A stretch of 64,000 bases of DNA from Pedobacter cryoconitis (GTDB lineage: Bacteria; Bacteroidota; Bacteroidia; Sphingobacteriales; Sphingobacteriaceae). Position numbers and translations under genes: made by a program. Positions 1,775 through 43,142 of this stretch are shown here, in pieces. The stretch is taken from contig NZ_JACHCG010000001.1 in assembly GCF_014200595.1 (NCBI RefSeq), positions 2,666,001 through 2,730,000 on the forward strand, in the 5' to 3' direction. Below the pieces are notes generated by a model that was given only the letters and a program-made list of their open reading frames with translations, was not told the DNA's origin and did not search any database. Positions within the stretch are counted from its first letter, which is position 1. Every line of letters begins with the position of its first letter.

Positions 1775-2905
1775 TTACTTAGCTTCTAATAAATAGAAAC
1801 CACCCTCTGATACGATCCTTTCGCCTTTGGCCAGACCACTTTTAATGACAACACGATCTCCATCTGTACCGCCTGTTTCTACTTTCCTTTTGATATATTT
1901 ACCGTCTGGGTTAACCACGAAAACAAAATTTGCCTCATTCATTTGCAGGATTGCTTTCAGCGGGATCATAATAACTGAAGCAGGTGCATCGATAAAGTTC
2001 ACAGAAACATACATTCCCGGTTTAAGAGTATGATCGCTGTTGTTACATTCGATCAGAACCTGTACACTACGGGTATCTTCGTCTACAATTTCATTGACAT
2101 GGTAGACTTTTCCCTTGATTTTTTTACCAGGAAATGCGGCCACCTCAATCTCACATTCATCTTTTTCATGAATATATCGGATATCTTTTTCCTTAACCTG
2201 GCCCACAATCCATACTTTACTCAGATTAGCAACCGTAGCTACACTGGCTGCATCGTCTTTAATAAACTGACCTAAAACCACTTTATTTTCAATGACTTCA
2301 CCAACAATTGGAGCATGTACAACCAGCGCCTGACCTAAAGACAATTTTTCTGGATTTGCCTTAAATATTTTGATGCCCATAACTGCATTTTCATATTCCT
2401 TTTTTTCAACATCATAGGCAGTTTGTGCTTCTTCTAAATCTTTCATTACACCTACCCCATTGGCCATCAGATCCTTCTGGCGTTTCAAAGTTCTTTCCGC
2501 CTGCTGCATCTGTGATTTCTCCTGAAAAAACACTTTTTGTGCAGCAATAAAATCCGGAGAACTGATTTCAAATAAAGGAGTTTCGGGCGTTGTTTTTAAT
2601 CCCAATTTGAGGTAGCTTTTAGTCACTCTGCCTTGAAAGGGCGGTGCAATTTCGGCGAATTGGGTGGGAATTGCTTTTACTGTTCCGGCAGTCATCATTT
2701 TCATGCTATAAGACTCAGTATCAACATCTATAATTTTAAGTTTACCCTTCAGTACTGAGTTGTCCGGTACAGTAATAACATCACCTTTCATAGTGTAATT
2801 AGCAGCAGGTTCTTTAGCTATTTGCTGTTTGCAGGAAGCAGTTATCCCTATAATGGCCATGGCAATGCCAGTCAAATACGACTGACGATTATTTCTTAAG
2901 TTCAT
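1775..2905 (-). CDS. CusB/CzcB-type periplasmic adaptor lipoprotein of metal efflux pump
   Basis: This 376-residue protein is the membrane-fusion subunit that links the RND permease to an outer-membrane channel. The N-terminus has a short hydrophobic stretch and a lipobox ending ITASC (Cys about 25), so it should be a lipoprotein. A barrel/lipoyl part (TAGTVKAIPTQFAEIAPPFQGRV), a coiled-coil hairpin around 120-170 and a second barrel half (HAPIVGEVIENKVVLGQF) follow in the usual order; the C-terminus has the membrane-proximal domain (VETGGTDGDRVVIKSGLAKGERIV). No His-rich metal-binding N-terminal extension is present. Its start overlaps the end of a 50-codon ORF by 17 nt, which suggests translational coupling to the mgtA operon. 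Confidence 0.93.
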   Translation of the reverse strand: MNLRNNRQSYLTGIAMAIIGITASCKQQIAKEPAANYTMKGDVITVPDNSVLKGKLKIIDVDTESYSMKMMTAGTVKAIPTQFAEIAPPFQGRVTKSYLKLGLKTTPETPLFEISSPDFIAAQKVFFQEKSQMQQAERTLKRQKDLMANGVGVMKDLEEAQTAYDVEKKEYENAVMGIKIFKANPEKLSLGQALVVHAPIVGEVIENKVVLGQFIKDDAASVATVANLSKVWIVGQVKEKDIRYIHEKDECEIEVAAFPGKKIKGKVYHVNEIVDEDTRSVQVLIECNNSDHTLKPGMYVSVNFIDAPASVIMIPLKAILQMNEANFVFVVNPDGKYIKRKVETGGTDGDRVVIKSGLAKGERIVSEGGFYLLEAK

Positions 2906-3041
2906 ATTGTGCTTTGTCTTTGTTTGAGAAATTAGATGATAGGGTATGAAAACGGTATTCCAACCATTCTGCGAGTATGACCACCAGTAGAATTAACACG
3001 ATGGCCAGTATCCATTGTTTGCGGGCAATAATTACAGCCAT
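2889..3041 (-). CDS. Putative 50-residue single-span membrane peptide between mgtA and cusB-like gene
   Basis: This short frame starts with ATG ten bases before the end of the mgtA coding region and ends inside the start of the adaptor gene, so it fills the otherwise non-coding gap. It reads MAVIIARKQW, then a strongly hydrophobic stretch (ILAIVLILLVVILAEWLEY, about residues 11-29) and a charged tail ending QYELKK. The basic residues before the span and the polar tail after it fit a small bitopic membrane protein. Coupled start and stop on both sides support real translation. Small membrane peptides are known partners of P-type ATPases (KdpF, MgtR/MgtS in enterobacteria), but no similarity to any of them is visible. 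Function unknown. Confidence 0.55.
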   Translation of the reverse strand: MAVIIARKQWILAIVLILLVVILAEWLEYRFHTLSSNFSNKDKAQYELKK

Positions 3042-5743
3042 TGGTTAAATCTTTTAATGTACCATCCTTTAATAAGTTGCGTAAGCAGACAGTAGCAAGC
3101 CAGAATTCCAATCAGCCATGGAAAATAGCTCAGTGGCAATTGTTCCATCTTTAATGCACCTGCAAATGGTGAAAACGGTATAAGGATCCCGATAACCATA
3201 ATCAGCGAGGTCAAAGCGACTACTGGTGTGGTTGCCCAGCTCTGAATAAATGGGATTTTACGCGTCCGGATCATATGTACAATCAGTGTCTGGGACAATA
3301 ACCCTTCGATAAACCATCCACTTTGAAATAAGCTTTGATGTTCAGGACTATTCGCTTTGAAAACATAAAACATCACTGCGAACATGGCATAATCAAATAT
3401 TGAGCTGATCGGGCCTATATAAATCATGAACCTCTTAATTCCGGATGCATCCCATTTTTTAGGTTGTTCGATAAACTCTTCATCCATTTTATCCCATGGG
3501 ATGGAGATCTGTGAAACATCGTACAAGAGATTCTGAACCAGAATTTGCACAGGGAGCATTGGCAGGAATGGCAGAAAGGCACTTGCACCTAACATGCTGA
3601 ACATATTACCGAAATTACTGCTGGCAGTCATTTTGATATATTTGATAATATTACCAAAAGTTCTGCGGCCATAGATCACCCCTTTTCTCAAAACCATCAG
3701 GTCTTTTTCCAGCAAAATGATATCGGCACTTTCTTTGGCAATATCTACCGCTGTATCTACACTGATCCCTACATCGGCATCTCTAAGTGCTACAGCATCA
3801 TTGATACCATCACCCATAAAGCCTACGGTGTGGCCTTTTGCCTGCAACATTTTAACCACCCGCGACTTTTGAACCGGACTTAATTTGGCCAGGATAGAAA
3901 CCTCTCCTACTTGTTCCTGTAATTCTGCATCGGTCATTTTCTCCACTTCCGCACCCAACAGGATTTTACTAAAAGGAATACCAACGTCACGGCAGATTTT
4001 TTTAGTAACAATCTCATTATCCCCGGTCAAAACTTTGATGCTCACCCCTAATTTCTGAAGCGCTTCAATAGCGATTTTGGCTGAAGGTTTAGCTGGATCA
4101 AGGAAGCCAATAAAACCGGTAAGGATCATGTTTTTTTCATCCTCTACGCCATAGTTCAGCGCACGGTCGTCAAATTCACGGATAGCAACAAGCAATACCC
4201 GAAGTCCTTCTGCATTGAGTTTTTTTGAGGTCTGAAGGATCATATTCCGCATGGCTGTATCCATAGGAATGACTTTATCAGATTCAATATGCAGTTTTTT
4301 ATCATCTCCGGGATCAAAAGCATGACTACAGAGATCAAGCATTTCTTCTACAGCTCCTTTACAAATCAATAAATGTTTACCATTGCGCTGTTTAAGTATT
4401 ACAGACATTCTGCGCCGATGGAAATCAAATGGGATTTCATCAACTTTTAAAAAATGCTCCTCAACTTTCAGATAATCATGCAGTTCAACATGCTCCAGTA
4501 CAGCAACATCGAGCAGGTTTTTTAGTCCCGTTTGATGAAAGCTATTGAGATAGGCCCATTTGAGTACTTCTTCATCCTCTTGTCCGAAGATATTCAAGTG
4601 TCTTTCCAGGACAATCTTGTCCATAGTGAGTGTACCTGTTTTATCTGTACACAGTACATCCATTGCCCCGATATTCTGGATGGCATTGAGCCTTTTAATA
4701 ATCACTTTGTGCTTACTCATATTAAGCGCGCCTTTAGCAAGATTTGCGGTCACAATCATCGGCAGCATTTCTGGTGTTAATCCAACCGCAACGGCGATTG
4801 CAAAAAGCAGTGCATCCCACCAGTTCCCTTTAACTAACCCATTGATCAGGAAAATCAGCGGTACCATCACCACCATAAAGCTGATGAGCAGATAACTTAC
4901 TTTATTAACACCTTTATCAAAGTTTGTTTCCGCACGTTTACCTACAATTACTTTGCTCAGTGAACCAAAATAGGTTTGATTGCCTGTATTTACAACAATC
5001 GCAGTCGCATAACCACTCACGACATTTGTTCCCATAAAACAGATATTATCTAATTCTACCAGTGGTTTTTCTTCTGCATTGCGGACCGTAAGACTTCTTT
5101 TTTCTACAGGTAAGGACTCTCCGGTCAGCATGGACTGGCTTACAAAAAGATCCTTTGACTGGACAACCCTGCAATCTGCCGGGATCATATCACCAGCGGA
5201 CAGCATAATTAAATCTCCCGGTACTAATTTTTTAATATCCACTTCTTTTTTTCCAGCAATTTTCCGTACCACGGTCGCTGTAGTTTTCACCATACTTTTA
5301 AGCTGTTCGGCCGCACGGTTGCTCCGGTATTCCTGAAAAAACCTTAACAATGAGCTGGCCATCACCATAATACCAACCATCGTAACTGTTTTGTAATCGG
5401 CTTCACCCGGGCTGGCCAACCAGACATCCAGAATAAAAGAGATGATTGCAATAATGAGCAGGATACCAATAAATGGATTTATAAATGCCTGAAACAGCTG
5501 TTTAATCCACGCTGGAGCTTTTTCATGATGCACCTCGTTCAAACCAAAACTGTTTAATCTCTCCTTGGCCTGCATAGCAGACAATCCCTCCATGGAGCTA
5601 TCCAGCATAGCCAGATAAAAGTCCTGGTCTGAGCGGGAAACATTATGAATTTTAGTTGCGGCAGCCTCGTCGCTGCCATTAGACATGATTTTTTTGCTGT
5701 CAGGCAGGACTCTTTTTTTTAATCCTTCTTTTACGATAGTCAT
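3032..5743 (-). CDS. mgtA: Magnesium-translocating P-type ATPase
   Basis: This 903-residue P3B-type ATPase imports Mg2+ across the inner membrane at the cost of ATP. Visible in order are the cation-ATPase N-terminal domain (SSMEGLSAMQAKERLNSFGL), two spans, the actuator motif MLTGESLPVEK, membrane segment 4 (VGLTPEMLPMIV), the phosphorylation motif CTDKTGTLTMDK near residue 365, the nucleotide-domain ICKGAVEEML, the hinge MGDGINDAVALRDADVGIS, and a C-terminal membrane half with IPWDKMDEE and RFMIYIGPISSIFDY, which are hallmarks of MgtA/MgtB rather than Ca2+ or K+ pumps. Length is normal for the family. It sits in a minus-strand operon with mgtC upstream and metal-efflux genes downstream. Confidence 0.95.
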   Translation of the reverse strand: MTIVKEGLKKRVLPDSKKIMSNGSDEAAATKIHNVSRSDQDFYLAMLDSSMEGLSAMQAKERLNSFGLNEVHHEKAPAWIKQLFQAFINPFIGILLIIAIISFILDVWLASPGEADYKTVTMVGIMVMASSLLRFFQEYRSNRAAEQLKSMVKTTATVVRKIAGKKEVDIKKLVPGDLIMLSAGDMIPADCRVVQSKDLFVSQSMLTGESLPVEKRSLTVRNAEEKPLVELDNICFMGTNVVSGYATAIVVNTGNQTYFGSLSKVIVGKRAETNFDKGVNKVSYLLISFMVVMVPLIFLINGLVKGNWWDALLFAIAVAVGLTPEMLPMIVTANLAKGALNMSKHKVIIKRLNAIQNIGAMDVLCTDKTGTLTMDKIVLERHLNIFGQEDEEVLKWAYLNSFHQTGLKNLLDVAVLEHVELHDYLKVEEHFLKVDEIPFDFHRRRMSVILKQRNGKHLLICKGAVEEMLDLCSHAFDPGDDKKLHIESDKVIPMDTAMRNMILQTSKKLNAEGLRVLLVAIREFDDRALNYGVEDEKNMILTGFIGFLDPAKPSAKIAIEALQKLGVSIKVLTGDNEIVTKKICRDVGIPFSKILLGAEVEKMTDAELQEQVGEVSILAKLSPVQKSRVVKMLQAKGHTVGFMGDGINDAVALRDADVGISVDTAVDIAKESADIILLEKDLMVLRKGVIYGRRTFGNIIKYIKMTASSNFGNMFSMLGASAFLPFLPMLPVQILVQNLLYDVSQISIPWDKMDEEFIEQPKKWDASGIKRFMIYIGPISSIFDYAMFAVMFYVFKANSPEHQSLFQSGWFIEGLLSQTLIVHMIRTRKIPFIQSWATTPVVALTSLIMVIGILIPFSPFAGALKMEQLPLSYFPWLIGILACYCLLTQLIKGWYIKRFNQWL

Positions 5744-34863: not shown

Positions 34864-35329
34864 AAAAAATATTAAAAATTGGCATCATTGGAACTGCGAA
34901 CATGGCACATTCCTTTACAGAATATTTGCTTATTGGGAATTCAATGCGAGTCAGTTCGATACTTCTATAGCTGCAAGATTAAGACATCAGGAAGGTGTTG
35001 TGGCACAACTAAATTGTAGTTTTAACACTGCTCCGCATAGAAATCTCCGTGTTATCGGATCAAAGGAGATCATCTCCTGTGGTTATAATAATCATACCAA
35101 TGCCGATACAGGCTTTATCGGGTTAAAAACAGGAATAGACTGGGATTACAAATTAAAGAAAATACCGGTTTCCTACGGAAATGGGCTTTTATTCGAGGCA
35201 GAGCACTTTTATTCAAGTATCAAGTCTTTCAATCATGCTTATACTGGTACTAGCGCAGAAGAATCTCTTGACAACACCAATACATTAATAGAAAATTATC
35301 AAAAGCGCAAGGAGAAACGTAAAAAGTGA
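34864..35329 (+). pseudogene. Decayed Gfo/Idh/MocA-family oxidoreductase
   Basis: The N-terminal Rossmann strand ILKIGIIGTANMAHSFTE lies in one frame and then meets a stop; from about 34930 another frame reads WEFNASQFDTSIAARLRHQEGVVAQLNCSFNTAPHRNLRVIG, followed by the rest of the C-terminal domain to 35329. Some 170 residues from the middle of the enzyme are missing and no start codon precedes the first piece. The C-terminal 109 residues remain open from a GTG at 35000 but cannot bind cofactor. Confidence 0.8.
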
Positions 35330-35797
35330 TGTGCTGTCAGCAGATTACGACGCTGCTATGGTGAAAGTATTTAATGAGAGAAAAATGATTTGTAAAAAAC
35401 AAATATTTATCATTCTGTAAATCCAGCTTAATTATACCCTATAAATACCCGTCCAGGACAATCTTAAATATTCGTTTTTACAGGTTATAAAGCAGTTTAA
35501 CTATTTTTCAAAAGAAATTATATTTCAAAAAACAACTCTTATCAATCATATAAATAACTAATATTATATAAAATAAATTTAAAAATTTAAAATAAACTTG
35601 CATTGACATTATATTTTTCATAATTTGTAATTAATTACTTAATAAAAGCAAATAAATTAATACCAAAACAAGATCAATTATCCATTTTTACTGATTAAAT
35701 ATATAAACAACTCTGTATTAATTACATGTATAAATTCTTTAGGAGTAATCTGAAAATCCTTAAAAGAGTAGGAAAAATTTAAACTAAAACCATTATT
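35330..35797. other. A/T-rich region upstream of graspetide precursor
   Basis: About 470 bp without an open frame. It is strikingly A/T-rich from 35500 to 35720 and must contain the promoter of the precursor gene. I see no confident TAnnTTTG box. Confidence 0.5.
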
Positions 35798-35983
35798 ATG
35801 ACTTTAAAACCATTTAAAATTGTTCAGGAAAGCAATGTCCTTAACAGCGAAGAATTGAAAAAAATCATGGGTGGAAAGCTGGCGCCTGATGATTCTTCTT
35901 CTTCAAGTTCGTCATCTTCAAGTTCAAGCAGTTCATCTTCTATTACTGATAGTGATAGCGACAGTGACAGTGATAGTGATTAG
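35798..35983 (+). CDS. Graspetide precursor (grasp-with-spasm type) with Ser-tract and Ser-Asp repeat core
   Basis: The 61-residue peptide starts MTLKPFKIVQESNVLNSEEL, then KKIMGGK at residues 21-27, the GG-type leader end seen in Bacteroidota RiPP precursors. The core is LAPDD, sixteen consecutive serines (33-48), ITD and five Ser-Asp pairs (52-61). Graspetides are made by ATP-grasp ligases that join Ser/Thr or Lys side chains to Asp/Glu side chains; this core offers 22 hydroxyls and eight acids. The serine tract uses both TCN (12) and AGY (4) codons, so it is not simple triplet slippage. ATP-grasp and SPASM genes follow. The product is unknown. Confidence 0.85.
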   Translation: MTLKPFKIVQESNVLNSEELKKIMGGKLAPDDSSSSSSSSSSSSSSSSITDSDSDSDSDSD

Positions 35984-35997
35984 TAATTGATTTAGTA

Positions 35998-36033
35998 TTT
36001 AATTCAGGCAGCATTGCAGCTGCCTGAATTAAA
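35998..36033 (+). terminator. Intercistronic hairpin between precursor and ATP-grasp gene
   Basis: A perfect 15-bp stem (TTTAATTCAGGCAGC at 35998-36012 with its complement at 36019-36033) and a six-base loop follows the precursor stop by 14 bp. Without a long T-run it probably acts as partial terminator or mRNA stabiliser, giving more precursor than enzyme. Confidence 0.7.
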
Positions 36034-36103
36034 CTTTCATTAAGCTCTCCATATCATCTAACAACTTAAAGCCTTTTTAATTAAACAGTTTTAAAAAAAA
36101 TGA

Positions 36104-37078
36104 ATGGTTCTAATACTTACTAAAAACAATGATGGTAGCTCTAATGGCATAATTGACTGGCTAACTTACTATAAAAAAGAATTCATAAGAGTAAATGGCA
36201 ATGATGATTATACCAGAATTGTAGAAATTACTTCTGATAAAATTATTATAGAACAGCAAGGCAAACAATATGACCTTCTAACTTGTGATAGTGTCTGGTA
36301 TAGACGAAATAGCTTTTCAGCTCAATCTTTTGGTATAAAAATAAAAAACTCAATCGTTGAAAATGTAATAGCAGGCGACCGTGATTATGCAAAAAAACAA
36401 CTTCTTGCTGAATCAAATGTACTCACCGAATATCTTTATTATTTAATTGAACAAAACATAGAAAAACGATTTGGTGGATATTTCTCATCCAATGTCAACA
36501 AATTAATTATCCTCGAAAAAGCGAAGCGCTTTGGCTTGAAAATTACAGAAAACTTTATTATTTCTGATCGGAAAAAGCTGGAAGAAAAGATTAATAGCAA
36601 TGGTAACTTAATTACTAAATCTTTTGACAATGGCGTATATGCACTTAAAAAGGAATATGGATACTTTTCCTATACAGAAAGAGTAAACACAGAGGAAGCT
36701 GCTAAATTCTCTTCTACTTTCTTCCCATCCTTACTCCAAAAAGAAATAAGAAAAAATTACGAGCTAAGGGTATTTTATTTGGCCGGCAAATTTTATTCAA
36801 CGGTAATTTTTTCCCAGAAAAATGAATCAACCAGCGTAGACAGTAGAAAACATTCAAAAGAACTTCCCCGACATCTTCCTTATCAGTTACCAAATGAGAT
36901 AGAAGATAAACTGCAATTGTTAATGATAGATTTGCATCTTAAAATGGGATCGATTGATATGATTGTTGACCGGGAGGGGAATTACATATTTCTGGAGGTA
37001 AACCCGGTTGGACAATTCACTTTCTACTCTAATAAATGTAATTATTTTCTGGAAAGAGAGCTTGCCCGCTTATTATAA
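36104..37078 (+). CDS. gwsG: ATP-grasp peptide maturase, grasp-with-spasm system
   Basis: The 324-residue ligase resembles MvdC/MvdD and GwsG proteins. It starts MVLILTKNNDGSSNGIIDWL, has the RiPP ATP-grasp element SVWYRRNSF, nucleotide-binding segments ITKSFDNGVYALKKEYGY and ELRVFYLAGKFYSTVIFSQ, and the metal-binding end LLMIDLHLKMGSIDMIVDREGNYIFLEVNPVGQFTF. It should activate Asp side chains of the precursor with ATP and join them to Ser/Thr hydroxyls. A stretch of 120 bp with a hairpin separates it from the precursor gene. Confidence 0.93.
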   Translation: MVLILTKNNDGSSNGIIDWLTYYKKEFIRVNGNDDYTRIVEITSDKIIIEQQGKQYDLLTCDSVWYRRNSFSAQSFGIKIKNSIVENVIAGDRDYAKKQLLAESNVLTEYLYYLIEQNIEKRFGGYFSSNVNKLIILEKAKRFGLKITENFIISDRKKLEEKINSNGNLITKSFDNGVYALKKEYGYFSYTERVNTEEAAKFSSTFFPSLLQKEIRKNYELRVFYLAGKFYSTVIFSQKNESTSVDSRKHSKELPRHLPYQLPNEIEDKLQLLMIDLHLKMGSIDMIVDREGNYIFLEVNPVGQFTFYSNKCNYFLERELARLL

Positions 37079-37099
37079 ACAATTTTATTAACAAAGAAC

Positions 37100-37309
37100 A
37101 TGGACCATTTTGAAAAAGTTATTCTTACCGACGATCAAAAAAAAACATTGCCACTGTTTTATAATTTTGTACATTATAAAAAATTAGATTCTACTTTTTA
37201 TAATTTTTCACCTCCTTATTCTGAAAGACTTAGAACTTATGCGATTTATTCGCAGGCAAATAAGCTGATCTCTAAAATTGTTGACTTTTCTCAAATTGAA
37301 GAAGAATGA
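37100..37309 (+). CDS. Small unknown protein of the graspetide cluster
   Basis: The 69-residue protein starts MDHFEKVILTDDQKKTLPLF and has a Tyr/Phe-rich middle (YNFVHYKKLDSTFYNFSPPYSERLRTYAIYSQ) and a helical acidic end. It lies 21 bp after the ATP-grasp gene and overlaps the SPASM gene by four bases (ATGA). It does not look like a precursor (no GG end or acid/hydroxyl core). A scaffold or leader-binding role is possible but only inferred. Confidence 0.7.
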   Translation: MDHFEKVILTDDQKKTLPLFYNFVHYKKLDSTFYNFSPPYSERLRTYAIYSQANKLISKIVDFSQIEEE

Positions 37310-38361
37310 TTCAAACCTCTCAATATTTAAAAGAATTTGCCGGCAAGTACCTTTACATCTATGCTGATATTTTTTTTGTAAAAGGCTATACCAGAACAAT
37401 GGTTTGCGATTTGAACAAAAATAAATGGTTTTTTATTGAAAATGATTATTATGATATAGTGATCGAGTTCAAATCTAGAAAAATCAATGATGTTATCAAC
37501 TTAGTTTCAGAAGCATCCGCCAGTCAACTCTGTTTATTTATAGAAAGCTTTATTGATAATGATTTTGCGGAAATTGTAGATGACATATCAAACTTCCCGC
37601 CACTAAAACTGGAATATGATTCCCCTAACCCCATTAATAATGCGATAATTGATATAGATGAACAGAGTAATTATGATGTGGATAAACTGTCTGCCGAGTT
37701 AGACAAACTGAATTGTAAATTTCTCCAAATCAGAATTTATTATGCGCCCGACATCAGTTTTATTACTGAACTGATCTTGAAGTTCAGTTCCCGGGACCTT
37801 AACAGTATCCAGCTTTTACTAAAATATCAAGATAGTATAACCTTGGCTCAATATCAGTCTTTAACAGTATCCTTCCCGATGATTTCGTTCACAATTTACA
37901 GCTCTCCATTTAACAAAATTTATGAATCTGACCTGAATATTATTTTGAACACCCTTGGATATGTGCATTATATAAAACAAGAAATTACTTCATGCAATTC
38001 ATGTGGAATAATTAATCAGGCCGTAATGACTCTGCCTGCTGAAGTTCATTTATTTATGGAAAATATCACCCATAATAATTGTCTGAACAGAAAAATATCA
38101 ATTGATATTAACGGAGAAATTAAAAATTGTCCTTCCATGGAGACATCATACGGAAATACAAATCAGACTTCCCTGATCGAAATAGCTGAAAATAAAGATT
38201 TTCAGTCACTGTGGACGATAAATAAAGATCAGATTTCTGTTTGCCAGGATTGTGAATATAGATATGTATGCAGTGATTGCAGAGCTTATACAGTTGACGG
38301 CATTATGTCCAAACCCTCTAAATGTAATTATGACCCCTATCAGGGACAATGGACTAACTAA
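37306..38361 (+). CDS. gwsS: SPASM-domain peptide maturase, grasp-with-spasm system
   Basis: This 351-residue protein carries C-terminal Cys-rich SPASM elements: SCNSCG, NNCLNRKISIDINGEIKNCPSM and VCQDCEYRYVCSDCRAY, which should hold auxiliary iron-sulfur clusters. The N-terminal two thirds have a radical-SAM-like strand/helix rhythm but no CX3CX2C motif, as is usual for this family. Its role with the ATP-grasp partner is not established; it may help recognise the precursor or alter the core. Spacing to the genes before and after is four bases overlap and three bases gap. Confidence 0.92.
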   Translation: MIQTSQYLKEFAGKYLYIYADIFFVKGYTRTMVCDLNKNKWFFIENDYYDIVIEFKSRKINDVINLVSEASASQLCLFIESFIDNDFAEIVDDISNFPPLKLEYDSPNPINNAIIDIDEQSNYDVDKLSAELDKLNCKFLQIRIYYAPDISFITELILKFSSRDLNSIQLLLKYQDSITLAQYQSLTVSFPMISFTIYSSPFNKIYESDLNIILNTLGYVHYIKQEITSCNSCGIINQAVMTLPAEVHLFMENITHNNCLNRKISIDINGEIKNCPSMETSYGNTNQTSLIEIAENKDFQSLWTINKDQISVCQDCEYRYVCSDCRAYTVDGIMSKPSKCNYDPYQGQWTN

Positions 38362-38364
38362 CAC

Positions 38365-39339
38365 ATGATGATAATGAGAATATTTTTAAGTTTATTTTTA
38401 TGCTTGTTTACTTTCACAAACATGGGGTTTAGCCAGAATAATTTCTATAATTTGTATACTAAGGCTTATCAATATTACAATGATAAGAAGTATAAAGATG
38501 CCGGCACTTTTTTCAGTAAAGCATATTTAGATAATTATAAAACTAAAAAAATTGAATCCATAGCCGGTGCGGGATATAATGCGGCATGCTCATGGTCTTT
38601 AGCCAAGCAACCGGATTCAGCATTTTACATCTTAAATAAAGCCGTCAATGATGAAAGATTTCTAACGTTTTACACCCAATTACCTAAAGATAGTGATTTC
38701 GATAATCTGCGTAATGATCCAAGATGGAAAAAAATAACAAGTATTTATCTGAAAACAAAGGAAACTTTTGAGAAAGGACAGAATAAAGAAATTACAGATT
38801 TACTAGCGAATGTACGTAAGACTGATCAGGAAGAAAGATTAAAGGCATTGGATTATGAAAAAAAATATGGAGGACAATCTACTGAAGCTAAAAATAAATG
38901 GGCAGAAGTAGAAAAACTGGATGTTATTAATTTCAAAACGGTAAGTCATATTATTGATTCCCTTGGCTGGCCAGGTCCAAAACTTATTGGTTATGAAGGA
39001 GCTCAGACTTTATTTCTTGTTATCCAACATTCCTCATTAGAGAATCAATTAAAGTATTTGCCAATTTTAAAACAAGCTGTAAAAAAAGGAGATGCCATGC
39101 CAGGTTCCCTTGCTTATCTGGAAGATAGGATTTCTATAAAACAAAAGCTTCCGCAAAAATATGGCACACAACTGGTGAGAGATGGATCAACTGGTAAGAT
39201 CCTTTACCCTGCCCGACTCCTGGATCCGAGAAATATCGATAAACTAAGAGAGGCAGCAGGTCTGGAGCCAATTGAAAATTATCTCCGGAATAATGGAGCA
39301 GACTGGGATCTGGAAGAATATATTAAAAAGCATCCTTAG
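38365..39339 (+). CDS. Exported TPR/DUF6624-like protein at the end of the graspetide cluster
   Basis: The 324-residue protein has a signal peptide ending MGFSQ, a helical TPR-like half (YQYYNDKKYKDAGTFFSKAYLDNYKTKKIESIAGAGYNAACSWSLAKQPDSAFYILNKA) and a C-terminal domain with LGWPGPKLIGYEGAQTLFLVIQHSSLENQLKYLPILKQA, YLEDRISIKQKLPQKYGTQ and LLDPRNIDKLREAAGLEPI, which fits DUF6624. It begins three bases after gwsS, so it is part of the operon. It could be a periplasmic partner, immunity factor or target of the peptide; no transporter or protease gene is in the cluster. Confidence 0.8.
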   Translation: MMIMRIFLSLFLCLFTFTNMGFSQNNFYNLYTKAYQYYNDKKYKDAGTFFSKAYLDNYKTKKIESIAGAGYNAACSWSLAKQPDSAFYILNKAVNDERFLTFYTQLPKDSDFDNLRNDPRWKKITSIYLKTKETFEKGQNKEITDLLANVRKTDQEERLKALDYEKKYGGQSTEAKNKWAEVEKLDVINFKTVSHIIDSLGWPGPKLIGYEGAQTLFLVIQHSSLENQLKYLPILKQAVKKGDAMPGSLAYLEDRISIKQKLPQKYGTQLVRDGSTGKILYPARLLDPRNIDKLREAAGLEPIENYLRNNGADWDLEEYIKKHP

Positions 39340-39422
39340 CATAAAAAAACCTGTATATAATAAGTCAAGAGCCTATGACGAGGATAATAGAAAATCAGAT
39401 CAACATATTTTTCAGTAAAATA

Positions 39423-39794
39423 TTAGTTCTTTAACCTTAAAAAAATCTCGGGATTATCTTTATTAATCATATTCTGTCTCCAGATTCTTCCATTAGCCTG
39501 ATAAGAAAATATGGCGTATAATGTCCTGCTGTTCTTACTCTTTTTTACATATAGTTCTTTCACTACTCTGCTTGCGGCAAGTTCGTGCCCAACTAATTGT
39601 CTATTTATATAAATATTGTGCAAAAAAATAACCAAAGCCACAGCTGGCCCACCTATAAAAAGTACAAATAAAAATGAAATTAATTTTCGCCATTTACCAT
39701 GGTCAAACCATATAAATTCTAATGCAATTATTGATAACACCTCAATTATGACTAGCCATAAAACCATATCAAAACCATCCCTCCCAAAAAGCAT
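39423..39794 (-). CDS. Hypothetical small membrane protein
   Basis: The 123-residue protein has two or three hydrophobic spans in the first half (LWLVIIEVLSIIALEFIWF and LISFLFVLFIGGPAVALVIFL) and a soluble C-terminal half with SRTLYAIFSYQANGRIWRQNMI. The tail resembles DUF3592-like domains weakly. It is convergent with the graspetide operon and divergent from the bufferin-type operon. No function can be given. Confidence 0.6.
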   Translation of the reverse strand: MLFGRDGFDMVLWLVIIEVLSIIALEFIWFDHGKWRKLISFLFVLFIGGPAVALVIFLHNIYINRQLVGHELAASRVVKELYVKKSKNSRTLYAIFSYQANGRIWRQNMINKDNPEIFLRLKN

Positions 39795-39852
39795 GTCATA
39801 CTGCTCTTAAACCATCAAAACACACTTTTCTGAAAAAAAAATAAAAAAGTTT

Positions 39853-39879
39853 GTAAGGATGGCTTCTTTCCTGCGACCA
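39853..39879 (+). promoter_or_regulatory. Possible ECF-sigma promoter of the bufferin-type operon
   Basis: GTAAGG (39853-39858), a 15-base spacer and CGACC (39874-39878) lie 42 bases upstream of the precursor start. The form resembles ECF-dependent promoters and recalls the GTAACC/CGAA promoter of SigF-controlled operons of this kind in Caulobacter. No TAnnTTTG box is present. Confidence 0.35.
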
Positions 39880-39920
39880 ATGTCAAAACAAAACAATAAT
39901 AAATTCTAAAAATTGACACA

Positions 39921-40271
39921 ATGGAAAAGAAAAAAAACATCCTGAGAAGTACTATTATCGCTAGCGCAATTATCGCAGTATCAGGTCTGAGTGCAAACGC
40001 AAACAGCATGTTCCGTTACAGTAACCTGGGTTCGGGAGAAGTAGTAAGAACAAACTTGTCGAAACAAGCTAGTGGTGCAAACTCCCTGGAATTGAGCTGT
40101 GGCGCAAAGTCTAAAACAGACTCTACAAAAACAGGTAAAGACGGGAAATGCGGAGAAGGCAAATGTGGCGCCTCTAAAACTAAAGCCGGTAAAGGTAAAG
40201 ATGGTAAGTGCGGCGAAGGTAAATGTGGTGCAGGAAAAACCAAAACTACTTCTGCTCCTAAAAAAGGATAA
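39921..40271 (+). CDS. hvfA: MNIO-type RiPP precursor, HvfA/bufferin-like
   Basis: The 116-residue precursor has a Sec signal peptide (about 1-29, ending SANANS), a linker with Cys60, and two copies of GKDGKCGEGKCGA (residues 72-84 and 92-104), each with an EGKCG motif. Cys77, 82, 97 and 102 are the likely modification sites. In HvfA/bufferin systems the DUF692 enzyme turns such cysteines into oxazolone-thioamide or thiooxazole groups that bind copper, and the peptide is exported by Sec. The Lys-rich tail (KTKTTSAPKKG) is usual. Confidence 0.9.
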   Translation: MEKKKNILRSTIIASAIIAVSGLSANANSMFRYSNLGSGEVVRTNLSKQASGANSLELSCGAKSKTDSTKTGKDGKCGEGKCGASKTKAGKGKDGKCGEGKCGAGKTKTTSAPKKG

Positions 40272-40280
40272 GTAAATTTT

Positions 40281-40339
40281 AAGAGTGTTGGCCATCAATA
40301 CGGAAACAATTAGTGACCGGACCTTTGGACAACACTCTT
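40281..40339 (+). terminator. Hairpin between RiPP precursor and DUF692 gene
   Basis: AAGAGTGTTG (40281-40290) pairs with CAACACTCTT (40330-40339), extendable by CCA/TGG after one mismatch. A T-rich end follows. It may attenuate expression of the downstream maturation genes relative to the precursor. Confidence 0.55.
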
Positions 40340-40361
40340 TCTCACCTTAAAAAATGTTGTT

Positions 40362-41192
40362 ATGGTAGGCATCGGTTTTAGAAAAGATTTTGCAGAAGAA
40401 ATGCTGCAAAACAACATCATTCAACCTGCATTTATAGAAGTAGCCCCGGAAAACTGGATTGGTGTAGGCGGCTTCTGGAAAAAAAAGTTCAGACAAGCTC
40501 TGGAAAAATATCCTTTATACACGCATGGTTTATCCCTTTCCATTGGCAGTCCGGATCCCCTGGATTTCCAGTTTCTGAAAAAAGTAAAAGCATTCCTTAA
40601 GGAAACCAATGCACAAATCTATTCAGAACACTTAAGTTACTCCAAATGTGACAATGCACATCTTTATGACCTCCTTCCTATCCCCTTTACCCATGATGCT
40701 GTAAAACATGTGGCCGAAAGGATCCGGATGGTGCAGGATGTGCTGGAAAGAAAAATAGCCATTGAAATTGTCAGCTATTACAGCCCGGTAGCCCCGGAAA
40801 TAACTGAAATTGAATTTATCAATAACATTCTTGCTGAAGTCAATTGTGACCTGCTACTGGATGTAAATAATGTTTATGTCAATGCTTTCAACCATAATTA
40901 CGACGCAAAACAATTTATTGATCTTCTGCCAATGGAACGCGTAAGTTATATCCATATGGCTGGTCATCACCAAGTATCAGAAAACCTGATTATAGATACG
41001 CATGGAGAAGCAATTATTGATCCTGTATTTGATCTGTTTGACTATACTATGCACCGTCTAAAAAGAGATGTACCTGTGTTATTGGAGCGGGATTTCAATA
41101 TTCCTGAACTGGAGGAACTACAGGAAGAAATGATCCGGTTAAATGAGATTAAAACGGCAGCATTAAAATCAACGTCTTATGTTACTGCTTGA
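40362..41192 (+). CDS. hvfB: DUF692 multinuclear non-heme iron oxidative enzyme (MNIO), HvfB-like
   Basis: The 276-residue TIM-barrel enzyme holds the metal-ligand motifs of DUF692: AFIEVAPENWIG, YTHGLSLSIGSPDPLD, IYSEHLSYS, LLLDVNNVYVNAFNHNY, SYIHMAGHH, IIDTHGEAI and VLLERDFNIPEL. It would bind two or three iron ions and oxidatively modify the cysteines of the HvfA-like precursor in the cytoplasm before export. The gene follows the precursor and overlaps the partner gene by 14 bases. Confidence 0.94.
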   Translation: MVGIGFRKDFAEEMLQNNIIQPAFIEVAPENWIGVGGFWKKKFRQALEKYPLYTHGLSLSIGSPDPLDFQFLKKVKAFLKETNAQIYSEHLSYSKCDNAHLYDLLPIPFTHDAVKHVAERIRMVQDVLERKIAIEIVSYYSPVAPEITEIEFINNILAEVNCDLLLDVNNVYVNAFNHNYDAKQFIDLLPMERVSYIHMAGHHQVSENLIIDTHGEAIIDPVFDLFDYTMHRLKRDVPVLLERDFNIPELEELQEEMIRLNEIKTAALKSTSYVTA

Positions 41193-41934
41193 ACAAACAC
41201 ACCTTAATCAATTGGCATTGGCCAGTTACTGCCGTACAGGGATTCTGGAAGATATTCCGGGAATCAATATTGAAAACATCGGCCATTACCGTCGCCTGGT
41301 ATTTAATGCTATAGATGACATGTTACAATCCGCATTCCCGCTAAGCCATGAGTTGCTCAAAGCTGGTGAGTGGCAAATGATTACCCACGATTTTTTCAGC
41401 AACCATGCTTGCCAGTCACCACAAGTTTGGTATATGCCCCGGGAGTTTTATGAATACCTGGAACAAACCCGTCCGCAAATACTGAATAAATATCCTGTCT
41501 TACTAGAGTTATTATGGTTTGAATGGCTGGAAGTAGAGCTTTTTATGATGGAAGACCAGGAGATCAACTATAGTATAACAGGAAATATTGAACAGGATAG
41601 AATCATACTAAACCCGGAAATACACTTTCAGCATTTTAACTTTCCGGTACATCTTAAAAAGGCGAAAAAAATTACAGCAGCAGCTAAAGGAGATTATTAC
41701 CTGTGCATACACCGTATACCAGAAACCGGAGATGTTAGTTTTACAGATCTTTCTCCTGCCTTTGTCCGTCTACTGGAGCTTTTATCAGAGAAACCTCAAA
41801 CTGCGGCTGCACTTATTGACGGTTTATGTGAAGAGCTGAAAATTGAACAAACTATTGAAACTACAACCATGTGCCAGAATTTCATCTTGATGGCGATGGA
41901 ATCACGGCTGATCATCGGCTTTAAAAATGACTAA
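41179..41934 (+). CDS. hvfC: DUF2063-type precursor-recognition partner, HvfC-like
   Basis: The 251-residue protein has an N-terminal DUF2063 helical domain (LASYCRTGILEDIPGINIENIGHYRRLVFNAIDDMLQSAFPLSHELLKAGEWQMITHDFFSNHACQSPQVWYMPREFYEYL) and a C-terminal winged part (LSPAFVRLLELLSEKPQTAAALIDGLCEEL). Such partners present the precursor to the DUF692 oxidase. The 14-base overlap with the oxidase gene and the one-to-two-base spacing to the DoxX gene show tight coupling. Confidence 0.92.
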   Translation: MLLLEQTHLNQLALASYCRTGILEDIPGINIENIGHYRRLVFNAIDDMLQSAFPLSHELLKAGEWQMITHDFFSNHACQSPQVWYMPREFYEYLEQTRPQILNKYPVLLELLWFEWLEVELFMMEDQEINYSITGNIEQDRIILNPEIHFQHFNFPVHLKKAKKITAAAKGDYYLCIHRIPETGDVSFTDLSPAFVRLLELLSEKPQTAAALIDGLCEELKIEQTIETTTMCQNFILMAMESRLIIGFKND

Positions 41935-41936
41935 AA

Positions 41937-42374
41937 ATGAAAATCAAACAAACATATAGCTATCTGAGTGATCAGCTTAAAAAAGCAGATTTCTTACCCC
42001 TTTTACTAATCAGGTTAACGCTGGCTTATGGCTTTTACACCCCGGCCAGAATGAAATGGAATGATATTAATGCTATTGGAGAATGGTTTGGCACTATAGG
42101 AATTCCCGCTCCTTATTTCAACGCCTGCCTGGCAGCAGGTACGGAAGCTTTAGGTGTAGTATTACTTATATTAGGACTGGGCACCCGTCTCATCAGTATT
42201 CCTTTAATGATTACGATGATTGTAGCCATTGTAACTGTACATTGGGCCAATGGCTTTGAAGCAGGAGAAAACGGATACGAGATTCCTATGTATTATCTGC
42301 TCATGTTATTCACGCTGTTAATCCTTGGGCCTGGAAAAGCAAGTCTTGATGAATTAATACGTAAAAAAAATTAG
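41937..42374 (+). CDS. hvfD: DoxX-family membrane protein, HvfD-like
   Basis: This 145-residue protein has four spans and the DoxX pattern LLLIRLTLAYGFYTPARMKWNDINAIGEWFGTIGIPAPYFNACLAAGTEALGVVLLILGLGTRLISIPLMITMIVAIVTVHWANGF. DoxX proteins end most HvfABCD/bufferin operons; their role is unclear, perhaps in redox steps in the membrane. It starts two bases after the HvfC-like stop. Confidence 0.93.
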   Translation: MKIKQTYSYLSDQLKKADFLPLLLIRLTLAYGFYTPARMKWNDINAIGEWFGTIGIPAPYFNACLAAGTEALGVVLLILGLGTRLISIPLMITMIVAIVTVHWANGFEAGENGYEIPMYYLLMLFTLLILGPGKASLDELIRKKN

Positions 42375-42462
42375 CATATGCCTATCGTTTTCAGTTGAAA
42401 AATCTGACTGTGTCCATAAAAATTTATAAAACTGGTACTTTATTATACGTTATAAGCAGCTG

Positions 42463-42470
42463 TATATTTG
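42463..42470 (+). promoter_or_regulatory. -7 box (TATATTTG) of the PfpI-like gene
   Basis: TATATTTG matches TAnnTTTG. Because it overlaps an upstream TTG codon at 42468, transcription must start after it, which settles the ATG at 42519 as translation start. Confidence 0.55.
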
Positions 42471-42518
42471 TCTTATAACATAGGAACACTAAAATTTTCA
42501 ATCCTAAAAAATAATGAT

Positions 42519-43142
42519 ATGCATATTGCCATTCTTACCTTCGATGGATTCAATGAACTGGATTCATTCATCGCATTAGGTATTCTTAACCGAATCAAAA
42601 CACCAGGCTGGCGCGTCTCTATCGCCTCTCCGACAGCAAAAGTCCGCTCTATGATCGGAGTTGTAATTGAAGCACAGGCCACACTGGAAGAAGCATGTTT
42701 AGCGGATGCAGTTATCTTTGGCAGCGGTACAAAAACCCGTGAAGTTATCGAAGATCAAGAGCTTATGGCCCGCTTAAAATTTGACCCGGCGCGGCAGTTA
42801 CTAGCGGCACAGTGTTCCGGAACACTTACCATGGCTAAACTCGGTTTACTCAATGGTACACCTGCCTGTACTGACCTGAAAACCAAGCCATGGGTTACAG
42901 CTGCTGGTGTAGATGTTTTAAACCAACCTTTCTTCGCTAATGGCAATGTGGCCACTACTGGCGGCTGTTTAGCTTCACACTATCTTGCAGCATGGATTAT
43001 TGCCCGGCTGGAAGGAATCGAGGCTGTCAAAAACGCCCTAAATTATGTTGTACCAGTTGGAGAAAAAGAAGAATACATTGAGCGTGCCTTGCGTAACATT
43101 ATGCCTTACCTACCAGTGGAGGCAGAACTTTTGAAAAAATAG
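42519..43142 (+). CDS. DJ-1/PfpI-family protein
   Basis: About 207 residues: MHIAILTFDGFNELDSFIALGIL carries the conserved Glu-containing first strand of PfpI proteins, and the nucleophile elbow is QLLAAQCSGTLTMAKLGLL (Cys about residue 105). HYLAAWIIARLEG near the end is typical of the ThiJ/PfpI subgroup close to isonitrile hydratase-like and AraC-associated domains. A longer frame from TTG at 42468 is rejected because of the promoter position. Function may be glyoxal or reactive-carbonyl detoxification. Confidence 0.88.
   Translation: MHIAILTFDGFNELDSFIALGILNRIKTPGWRVSIASPTAKVRSMIGVVIEAQATLEEACLADAVIFGSGTKTREVIEDQELMARLKFDPARQLLAAQCSGTLTMAKLGLLNGTPACTDLKTKPWVTAAGVDVLNQPFFANGNVATTGGCLASHYLAAWIIARLEGIEAVKNALNYVVPVGEKEEYIERALRNIMPYLPVEAELLKK

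Follow-up and report, generated by a model that had tools for sequence, protein, structure and literature searches.

ATP-grasp graspetide synthetases phosphorylate Asp or Glu side chains, which are then attacked by the side chains of Ser, Thr or Lys (excerpts of PMC13097080). Branch 5 of Makarova et al. 2022 combines an ATP-grasp and a SPASM protein of Bacteroidetes with very diverse precursors; a small 'LPL' protein, encoded directly upstream of the SPASM gene, was suggested to be a chaperone (excerpts of PMC8939145). This grasp-with-spasm family apparently corresponds to group 14 of Carter et al. 2026, and the excerpts of that paper report no characterised member (PMC13097080). The excerpts of a study that refactored eleven graspetide clusters mention groups 2, 7, 8 and 19 and one group without a number; group 14 does not appear in them (PMC9576775). 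Here, we analyse a grasp-with-spasm cluster of Pedobacter cryoconitis (genome of 6.35 Mb in 17 contigs) within a window of 64,000 nt, i.e., the whole stretch of DNA studied, to which the coordinates refer. The cluster is real, apparently intact and of a known but chemically unexplored kind; the family had been described before, and what is new is the extreme Ser/(Ser-Asp) core of its precursor.

By analogy, rosaritide (MirA/MirB/MirC, group 21) is the closest experimental precedent for this core. Its links run Ser8-Asp22, Ser9-Asp26 and Thr11-Asp24, with Thr23 and Ser25 dispensable. Common to both systems would be Ser/Ser/Thr donors that lie upstream of D-x-D-x-D acceptors, Thr/Ser residues that stay idle between these acceptors, and dependence on a partner protein, whereas rosaritide is actinobacterial, uses a TIGR04187 enzyme and a peptidyl-prolyl isomerase (PPIase)-type partner, and has three links in a mixed core. 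Microviridins (MdnB/MdnC) share the ATP-grasp family and, judged from solved relatives, the expected ester chemistry, but employ two ATP-grasps and contain a lactam besides lactones (excerpts of PMC8939145). With the described grasp-with-spasm clusters the locus has in common the ATP-grasp, an LPL-type small gene directly upstream of the SPASM gene, an upstream GG precursor and membership in a set of highly variable cores; it differs in a core that is mostly Ser and then (Ser-Asp), without Cys, and in having no adjacent transporter. No such core is described in the excerpts of PMC8939145 and PMC13097080, and the literature on ribosomally synthesized and post-translationally modified peptides (RiPPs) made no mention of polyserine among the matches listed from open-licence papers.

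A precursor of serines and Ser-Asp repeats

The genes for the precursor, the ATP-grasp, a 69-aa open reading frame (ORF), the SPASM protein and a TPR/DUF6624 protein follow one another on the + strand (Table 1). The first-pass annotation had described a 61-residue GG-leader peptide with sixteen serines and a T-D-(S-D)5 tail ahead of ATP-grasp and SPASM genes, which was confirmed on re-reading 35798-38361. The translation is MTLKPFKIVQESNVLNSEELKKIMGG^KLAPDD-S16-I-TD(SD)5, with GG at residues 25-26 and a core of 35 residues (KLAPDD, sixteen Ser, Ile and TD(SD)5). The assignment to a grasp-with-spasm graspetide cluster held as well: both proteins lie far above the NCBIfam cut-offs (ATP-grasp vs TIGR04192, 313.8 bits, cut-off 230; SPASM protein vs TIGR04193, 310.6 bits, cut-off 175), a GG-leader precursor with hydroxyl and acidic core residues is found upstream, and the hairpin test given below supports an operon of precursor and ATP-grasp. 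When the letters of the core were shuffled 20,000 times, a run of six (S/T)D units was reached in 3 and a run of 16 serines in 2 of the shuffles, so that neither is due to chance.

To place the core among its relatives, 128 stretches were used, nearly all fetched for a TIGR04193 match, so that the SPASM neighbour of every ATP-grasp gene is there by construction. An ATP-grasp of more than 250 aa was present in 120 of them (125 genes). The rule for GG leaders, which takes the innermost fitting ATG, may shorten leaders and admits some clear non-precursor ORFs, yielded 165 candidates in 95 loci (157 unique) and none in 25 loci. Among the 157, only the window precursor has a Ser run of at least four, and only this one has at least three consecutive (S/T)(D/E) units; its core also ranks first in S+T+D+E content among the candidates compared. 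The search for poly-Ser/(SD)n cores across grasp-with-spasm precursors, proposed at the outset, thus returned no core to match it in length. When the pattern DSDSDSD was restricted to AGY serines, 1 of 399 family genomes matched, namely the own genome, and there only in the precursor gene; the same pattern read backwards as a control matched twice in the own genome and in no other listed genome. TIGR04193 itself was matched in 33 of 148 relatives (E<=0.001), 68 of the 399 family genomes (E<=1e-20) and 31 of 395 class genomes (E<=1e-30), counts that each include the own genome and come from overlapping samples.

The core had been regarded as a type of its own, but related clusters carry cores with a Ser/Thr block and a (S)D-rich part. 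The closest relative of the window's ATP-grasp is that of L141 (Sphingobacterium; precursor P0006, named Sphingobacterium sp. PCS056), whose core VSVATTSFSNSFTTSTKSGGGDSDSFDSDSDASRSIDEL has a Ser/Thr block followed by DSDSFDSDSD; it differs in the mixed residues of the block, a GGG spacer and a glycosyltransferase-like gene downstream. The cores of L050, L119, L126 and L051 follow the plan of a hydroxyl block and an S/D-rich tail more loosely. In a tree of the 125 ATP-grasps (quick method), the window falls into a set of three with L141 and the long-branched L056 (support 97), and L119, L126 and L051 form a separate set (support 94). Since similar cores sit in two separate sets of this tree, this type probably has more than one origin or was retained more than once. 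A precursor profile search (8000 candidates scored) returned five of its six inputs and P0007, a relative of the L051 precursor.

For the order of residues within cores, 147 candidates were kept, of which 89 were non-redundant, 87 had enough residues and 86 remained without the window. Hydroxyl residues precede acids, i.e., donors precede acceptors, in 70 of these 86 other cores, an order across the family that supports a real precursor. Acid spacings of 6 and 7 were enriched family-wide (z 3.3 and 3.1). The cores of L149, L154 and L059, on one ATP-grasp branch, repeat units such as HDNSN or xxSxxD, with donors and acceptors at regular intervals, and L060, L150 and L151 each contain at least four tandem precursor genes with related cores.

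A core without an equal-length counterpart, among the 157 candidates or by AGY pattern in the 399 family genomes, might be a low-complexity remnant, inflated and degraded by replication slippage and poorly or not modified. The first-pass annotation had argued from mixed codons against slippage, which stands for the Ser tract and not for the tail. The tract uses five codons from both Ser blocks (TCT six times, TCA five, AGT three, TCG and AGC once each), and Tandem Repeats Finder reported no array in it. The SD tail, in contrast, is a recognisable hexanucleotide array (6 bp, 35947-35980, 5.7 copies, 85% matches); its three departures from the repeat, all T/C changes at third positions, are too few as proof of selection. 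While the tail thus fits slippage, the open and full-length enzyme ORFs, the hairpin, the Ser tract and the similar plan in the nearest relative, L141, argue against a remnant, and we regard it as unlikely.

Proposed cross-linking by the ATP-grasp and its partner

Solved structural relatives of the ATP-grasp are AMdnB 7m4s, 5ig9, 5ig8 and CdnC 7mgv. As a microviridin synthetase of the MvdC/MvdD type it scored far too low (TIGR04185, 113.4 bits vs 425; TIGR04184, 107 vs 475). The leader and core motifs of microviridins also differ from those of the window precursor.

The SPASM gene had been listed as a maturase, which in the radical SAM sense was not borne out. Among the 120 listed of 341 homologues, the window protein (P0008) included, none contains the radical SAM motif CxxxCxxC in the first 200 residues; the SPASM cysteines are present as CxxCx5CxxC in 120 and as C-x9-16-G-x4-C in 119. 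A model of the protein, which took in 84 of the 120, consists of an RRE-like domain (about 14-91) with the predicted winged-helix fold of an RRE, a degenerate barrel and a SPASM domain (about 260-330). In a sequence search against the PDB, the sole match had an E of 0.34. The SPASM protein P0009 has 64% identity to that of the window. The model suggests that the SPASM protein is probably a partner protein and not a radical SAM maturase, and TIGR04193-type proteins look as if a former radical SAM enzyme had been recruited as a partner. One figure legend labels the non-radical SPASM protein a radical SAM enzyme (excerpts of PMC8939145). Thioether formation on this core was rejected, as both Cys and the radical SAM motif are absent. 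The 69-aa ORF, which the first-pass annotation had left out, overlaps the start of the SPASM gene and had no match among Pfam or NCBIfam models; position and LPL motif identify it as the putative LPL-type small protein of the system. Directly upstream of the SPASM gene, an ORF of at least 40 aa was found in 111 of the 125 clusters, with [LVIF]P[LVIF] in 77 of those.

We consider it fairly probable that the locus makes a graspetide by the following scheme, the chemical steps of which we infer. The hairpin after the precursor stop would end many transcripts and leave the precursor in excess over the enzymes. The RRE-like domain of the SPASM protein is predicted to bind the leader (residues 1-26), the protein acting in delivery or as a partner, perhaps together with the LPL-type small protein, as the model and the gene position suggest. 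In the alternating (S-D) tail, Asp side chains would be phosphorylated by the ATP-grasp and then attacked by Ser hydroxyls from the S16 tract upstream, giving several ester (lactone) bridges that join a pure donor strand to an alternating acceptor strand. Cleavage at GG and export would fall to a C39 transporter whose gene lies elsewhere. Because rosaritide uses upstream Ser/Ser/Thr donors and D-x-D-x-D acceptors, several esters between Ser tract and Asp tail are the likeliest chemistry, in agreement with the cross-linking first proposed for the locus; the ladder itself would follow by analogy. As in rosaritide, the serines between the tail Asps would probably be idle. Up to six links could arise from the tail Asps, and the calculated mass of the core (residues 27-61) is 3389.30 Da unmodified and 3281.24 Da with six links.

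A more specific version can be put forward only tentatively: the S16 donor strand might be zipped to the D-S-D-S acceptor strand by up to six successive esters, with the enzyme-partner complex rather than a motif of the core fixing their register, and with a leader-binding delivery subunit that derives from a radical SAM enzyme and has lost catalysis. The graspetide field asks how a single ATP-grasp pairs a given Ser/Thr with a given Asp/Glu. With 16 identical donors and 6 evenly spaced acceptors, the window core carries next to no sequence information, and therefore the product would show directly whether the register originates in the core or in the enzyme with its partner. Being the most extreme among the family precursors compared, the peptide represents a clean natural test of partner choice in the building of ester links. 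A product from this locus would be one for a Bacteroidota family without a described product in the literature searched, and would assign a definite function to the non-radical SPASM protein.

Rich in acids and Ser, and with two further Asps near the leader, the core could also act as a flexible polyanion that binds metal or a surface, the ATP-grasp making few or other bonds, e.g., at the leader-proximal Asp31-Asp32. We hold this to be highly improbable, as both the hydroxyl-before-acid order shared by the family cores and the use by rosaritide of its D-x-D-x-D acids, not its other Asp pair, speak against it, if indirectly.

Several results weigh against the ester-bridged graspetide. Among 145 genus genomes there was no orthologue of the whole precursor: besides the own copy (E 6.6e-28), the best E was 0.0027, and most matches listed were of leader length. 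The leader resembles TIGR04149 (GG_sam_targ_CFB) without counting as a member (18 bits, 17.7 in the genome search; cut-off 25). Acids at i,i+2 are not enriched in the family (z 0.0 without the window), and D-x-D spacing was rejected as a family rule. The likeness of the L141 and window cores may be a coincidence, because L056, the third member of the set with support 97, sits on a long branch and its core is different. Profile scans with Pfam and NCBIfam found no C39 transporter in the cluster. Finally, no characterised product of the family was found in the open-licence literature searched, and the assignment of lactone formation to TIGR04192 enzymes is therefore an extrapolation from other groups of ATP-grasps. 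In a set of 5.8 billion proteins, the precursor had a single match, P0001 (E 0.33), and the window's own precursor was not recovered, so absence there means little; P0001 was rejected as a relative, as it is without a GG leader and looks eukaryotic.

Hairpin, export and neighbouring genes

The interval 35981-36103 between the precursor and the ATP-grasp folds into a stable hairpin (Table 1), with a z of -4.0 vs 200 dinucleotide shuffles. A consensus terminator scan of 35300-39600 gave the hairpin as its one terminator-like site, and shuffles average 1.8, so that the scan alone is no evidence. The comparison took in 67 clusters, window included, with 40-260 nt between the end of the nearest candidate and the ATP-grasp; a significant hairpin lies at the same position in 57 of them, vs 3 of 67 equal stretches just upstream of the precursor (dinucleotide shuffles; 58 of 67 in an earlier run with single-letter shuffles). 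Its letters vary between clusters, and position and fold are kept more. This position supports a real precursor gene. In other peptide operons, such a layout is expected where the precursor must outnumber its enzymes. A hairpin that keeps its position and varies in sequence could also help to find missed precursors.

Table 1. Features of the grasp-with-spasm cluster (window coordinates)
Feature	Position	Strand	Basis or remark
Precursor gene, 61 aa	35798..35983	+	leader = residues 1-26 ending GG; core = residues 27-61
16-serine tract, proposed donor hydroxyls	35894..35941	+	read from sequence
T-D-(S-D)5 tail, proposed alternating acceptor carboxylates	35945..35980	+	read from sequence
RNA hairpin between precursor stop and ATP-grasp start	35998..36033	+	fold statistics; likely attenuator/partial terminator
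ATP-grasp graspetide synthetase (TIGR04192)	36104..37078	+	NCBIfam profile match
69-aa small ORF containing LPL, 'LPL family' position	37100..37309	+	position and LPL letters
SPASM_w_grasp protein (TIGR04193)	37306..38361	+	NCBIfam profile match and model
TPR plus DUF6624 protein, signal-peptide-like N-terminus (by eye)	38365..39339	+	Pfam PF20329

For export, the genome contains eight C39 matches outside the cluster. In other clusters, 51 of 85 downstream genes form one BLAST group whose members shown have about 730 aa and start with DCGPTCL, putative C39 transporters by this start. A DUF6624-type gene appears to lie downstream in 9 of the 85 clusters, window included (one BLAST group; checked by Pfam in the window, L046 and L114). 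In the window it scored 60.7 bits against PF20329 (cut-off 27), and it may be Makarova's 'cluster 23'.

Other downstream genes suggest sugar decoration in a subset of the clusters. Directly after the SPASM gene, L141 has a GT2-like gene (470-2209; 23.0 bits, narrowly below the cut-off of 23.3) and L051 a Branch gene (2460-3335; 94 bits, cut-off 23.4), and GT25 follows the SPASM gene in L129 (5712-6395; 29.0) and L140 (1579-2292; 26.2; cut-off 24). Owing to these four clusters, we also considered the Ser tract as chiefly a site for glycans, with O-glycosylation of the hydroxyl-rich core and either a few ATP-grasp links or none; a GT2-like gene near the second cluster of the genome (L046; 22.9 vs 23.3) would fit. 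However, no glycosyltransferase-like gene was recognised among the window ORFs scanned (35000-43142), only 4 of the 85 downstream genes were so recognised (most of them being BLAST-grouped and not profile-tested), and glycosylation leaves the alternating Asp tail unexplained, which makes this explanation quite improbable.

The second grasp-with-spasm cluster (C1:2004405-2008361; L001, L046) has its own, different precursor, an ORF in the LPL position and a DUF6624 gene. On the opposite strand nearby are the GT2-like gene and an R2K-like ATP-grasp (19.3 bits, cut-off 26.2). A scan of genome contigs with the SPASM protein as query gave one locus. Upstream of the window precursor, a 109-aa ORF (35000-35329) had no Pfam or NCBIfam match. 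On the other side, an HvfA/HvfB/HvfC-like set adjoins the cluster (39921-41934), consisting of a KCGExKCG precursor (NF050137, 37.7 bits, cut-off 19.5; the full-length model NF050188 gave 33.6, below its cut-off of 95), an MNIO enzyme (NF003818, 390.6 bits, cut-off 360) and an HvfC-like protein (141.3, cut-off 142), with DoxX beside it at 41937-42374; the set suggests an oxazolone/thioamide metallophore pathway.
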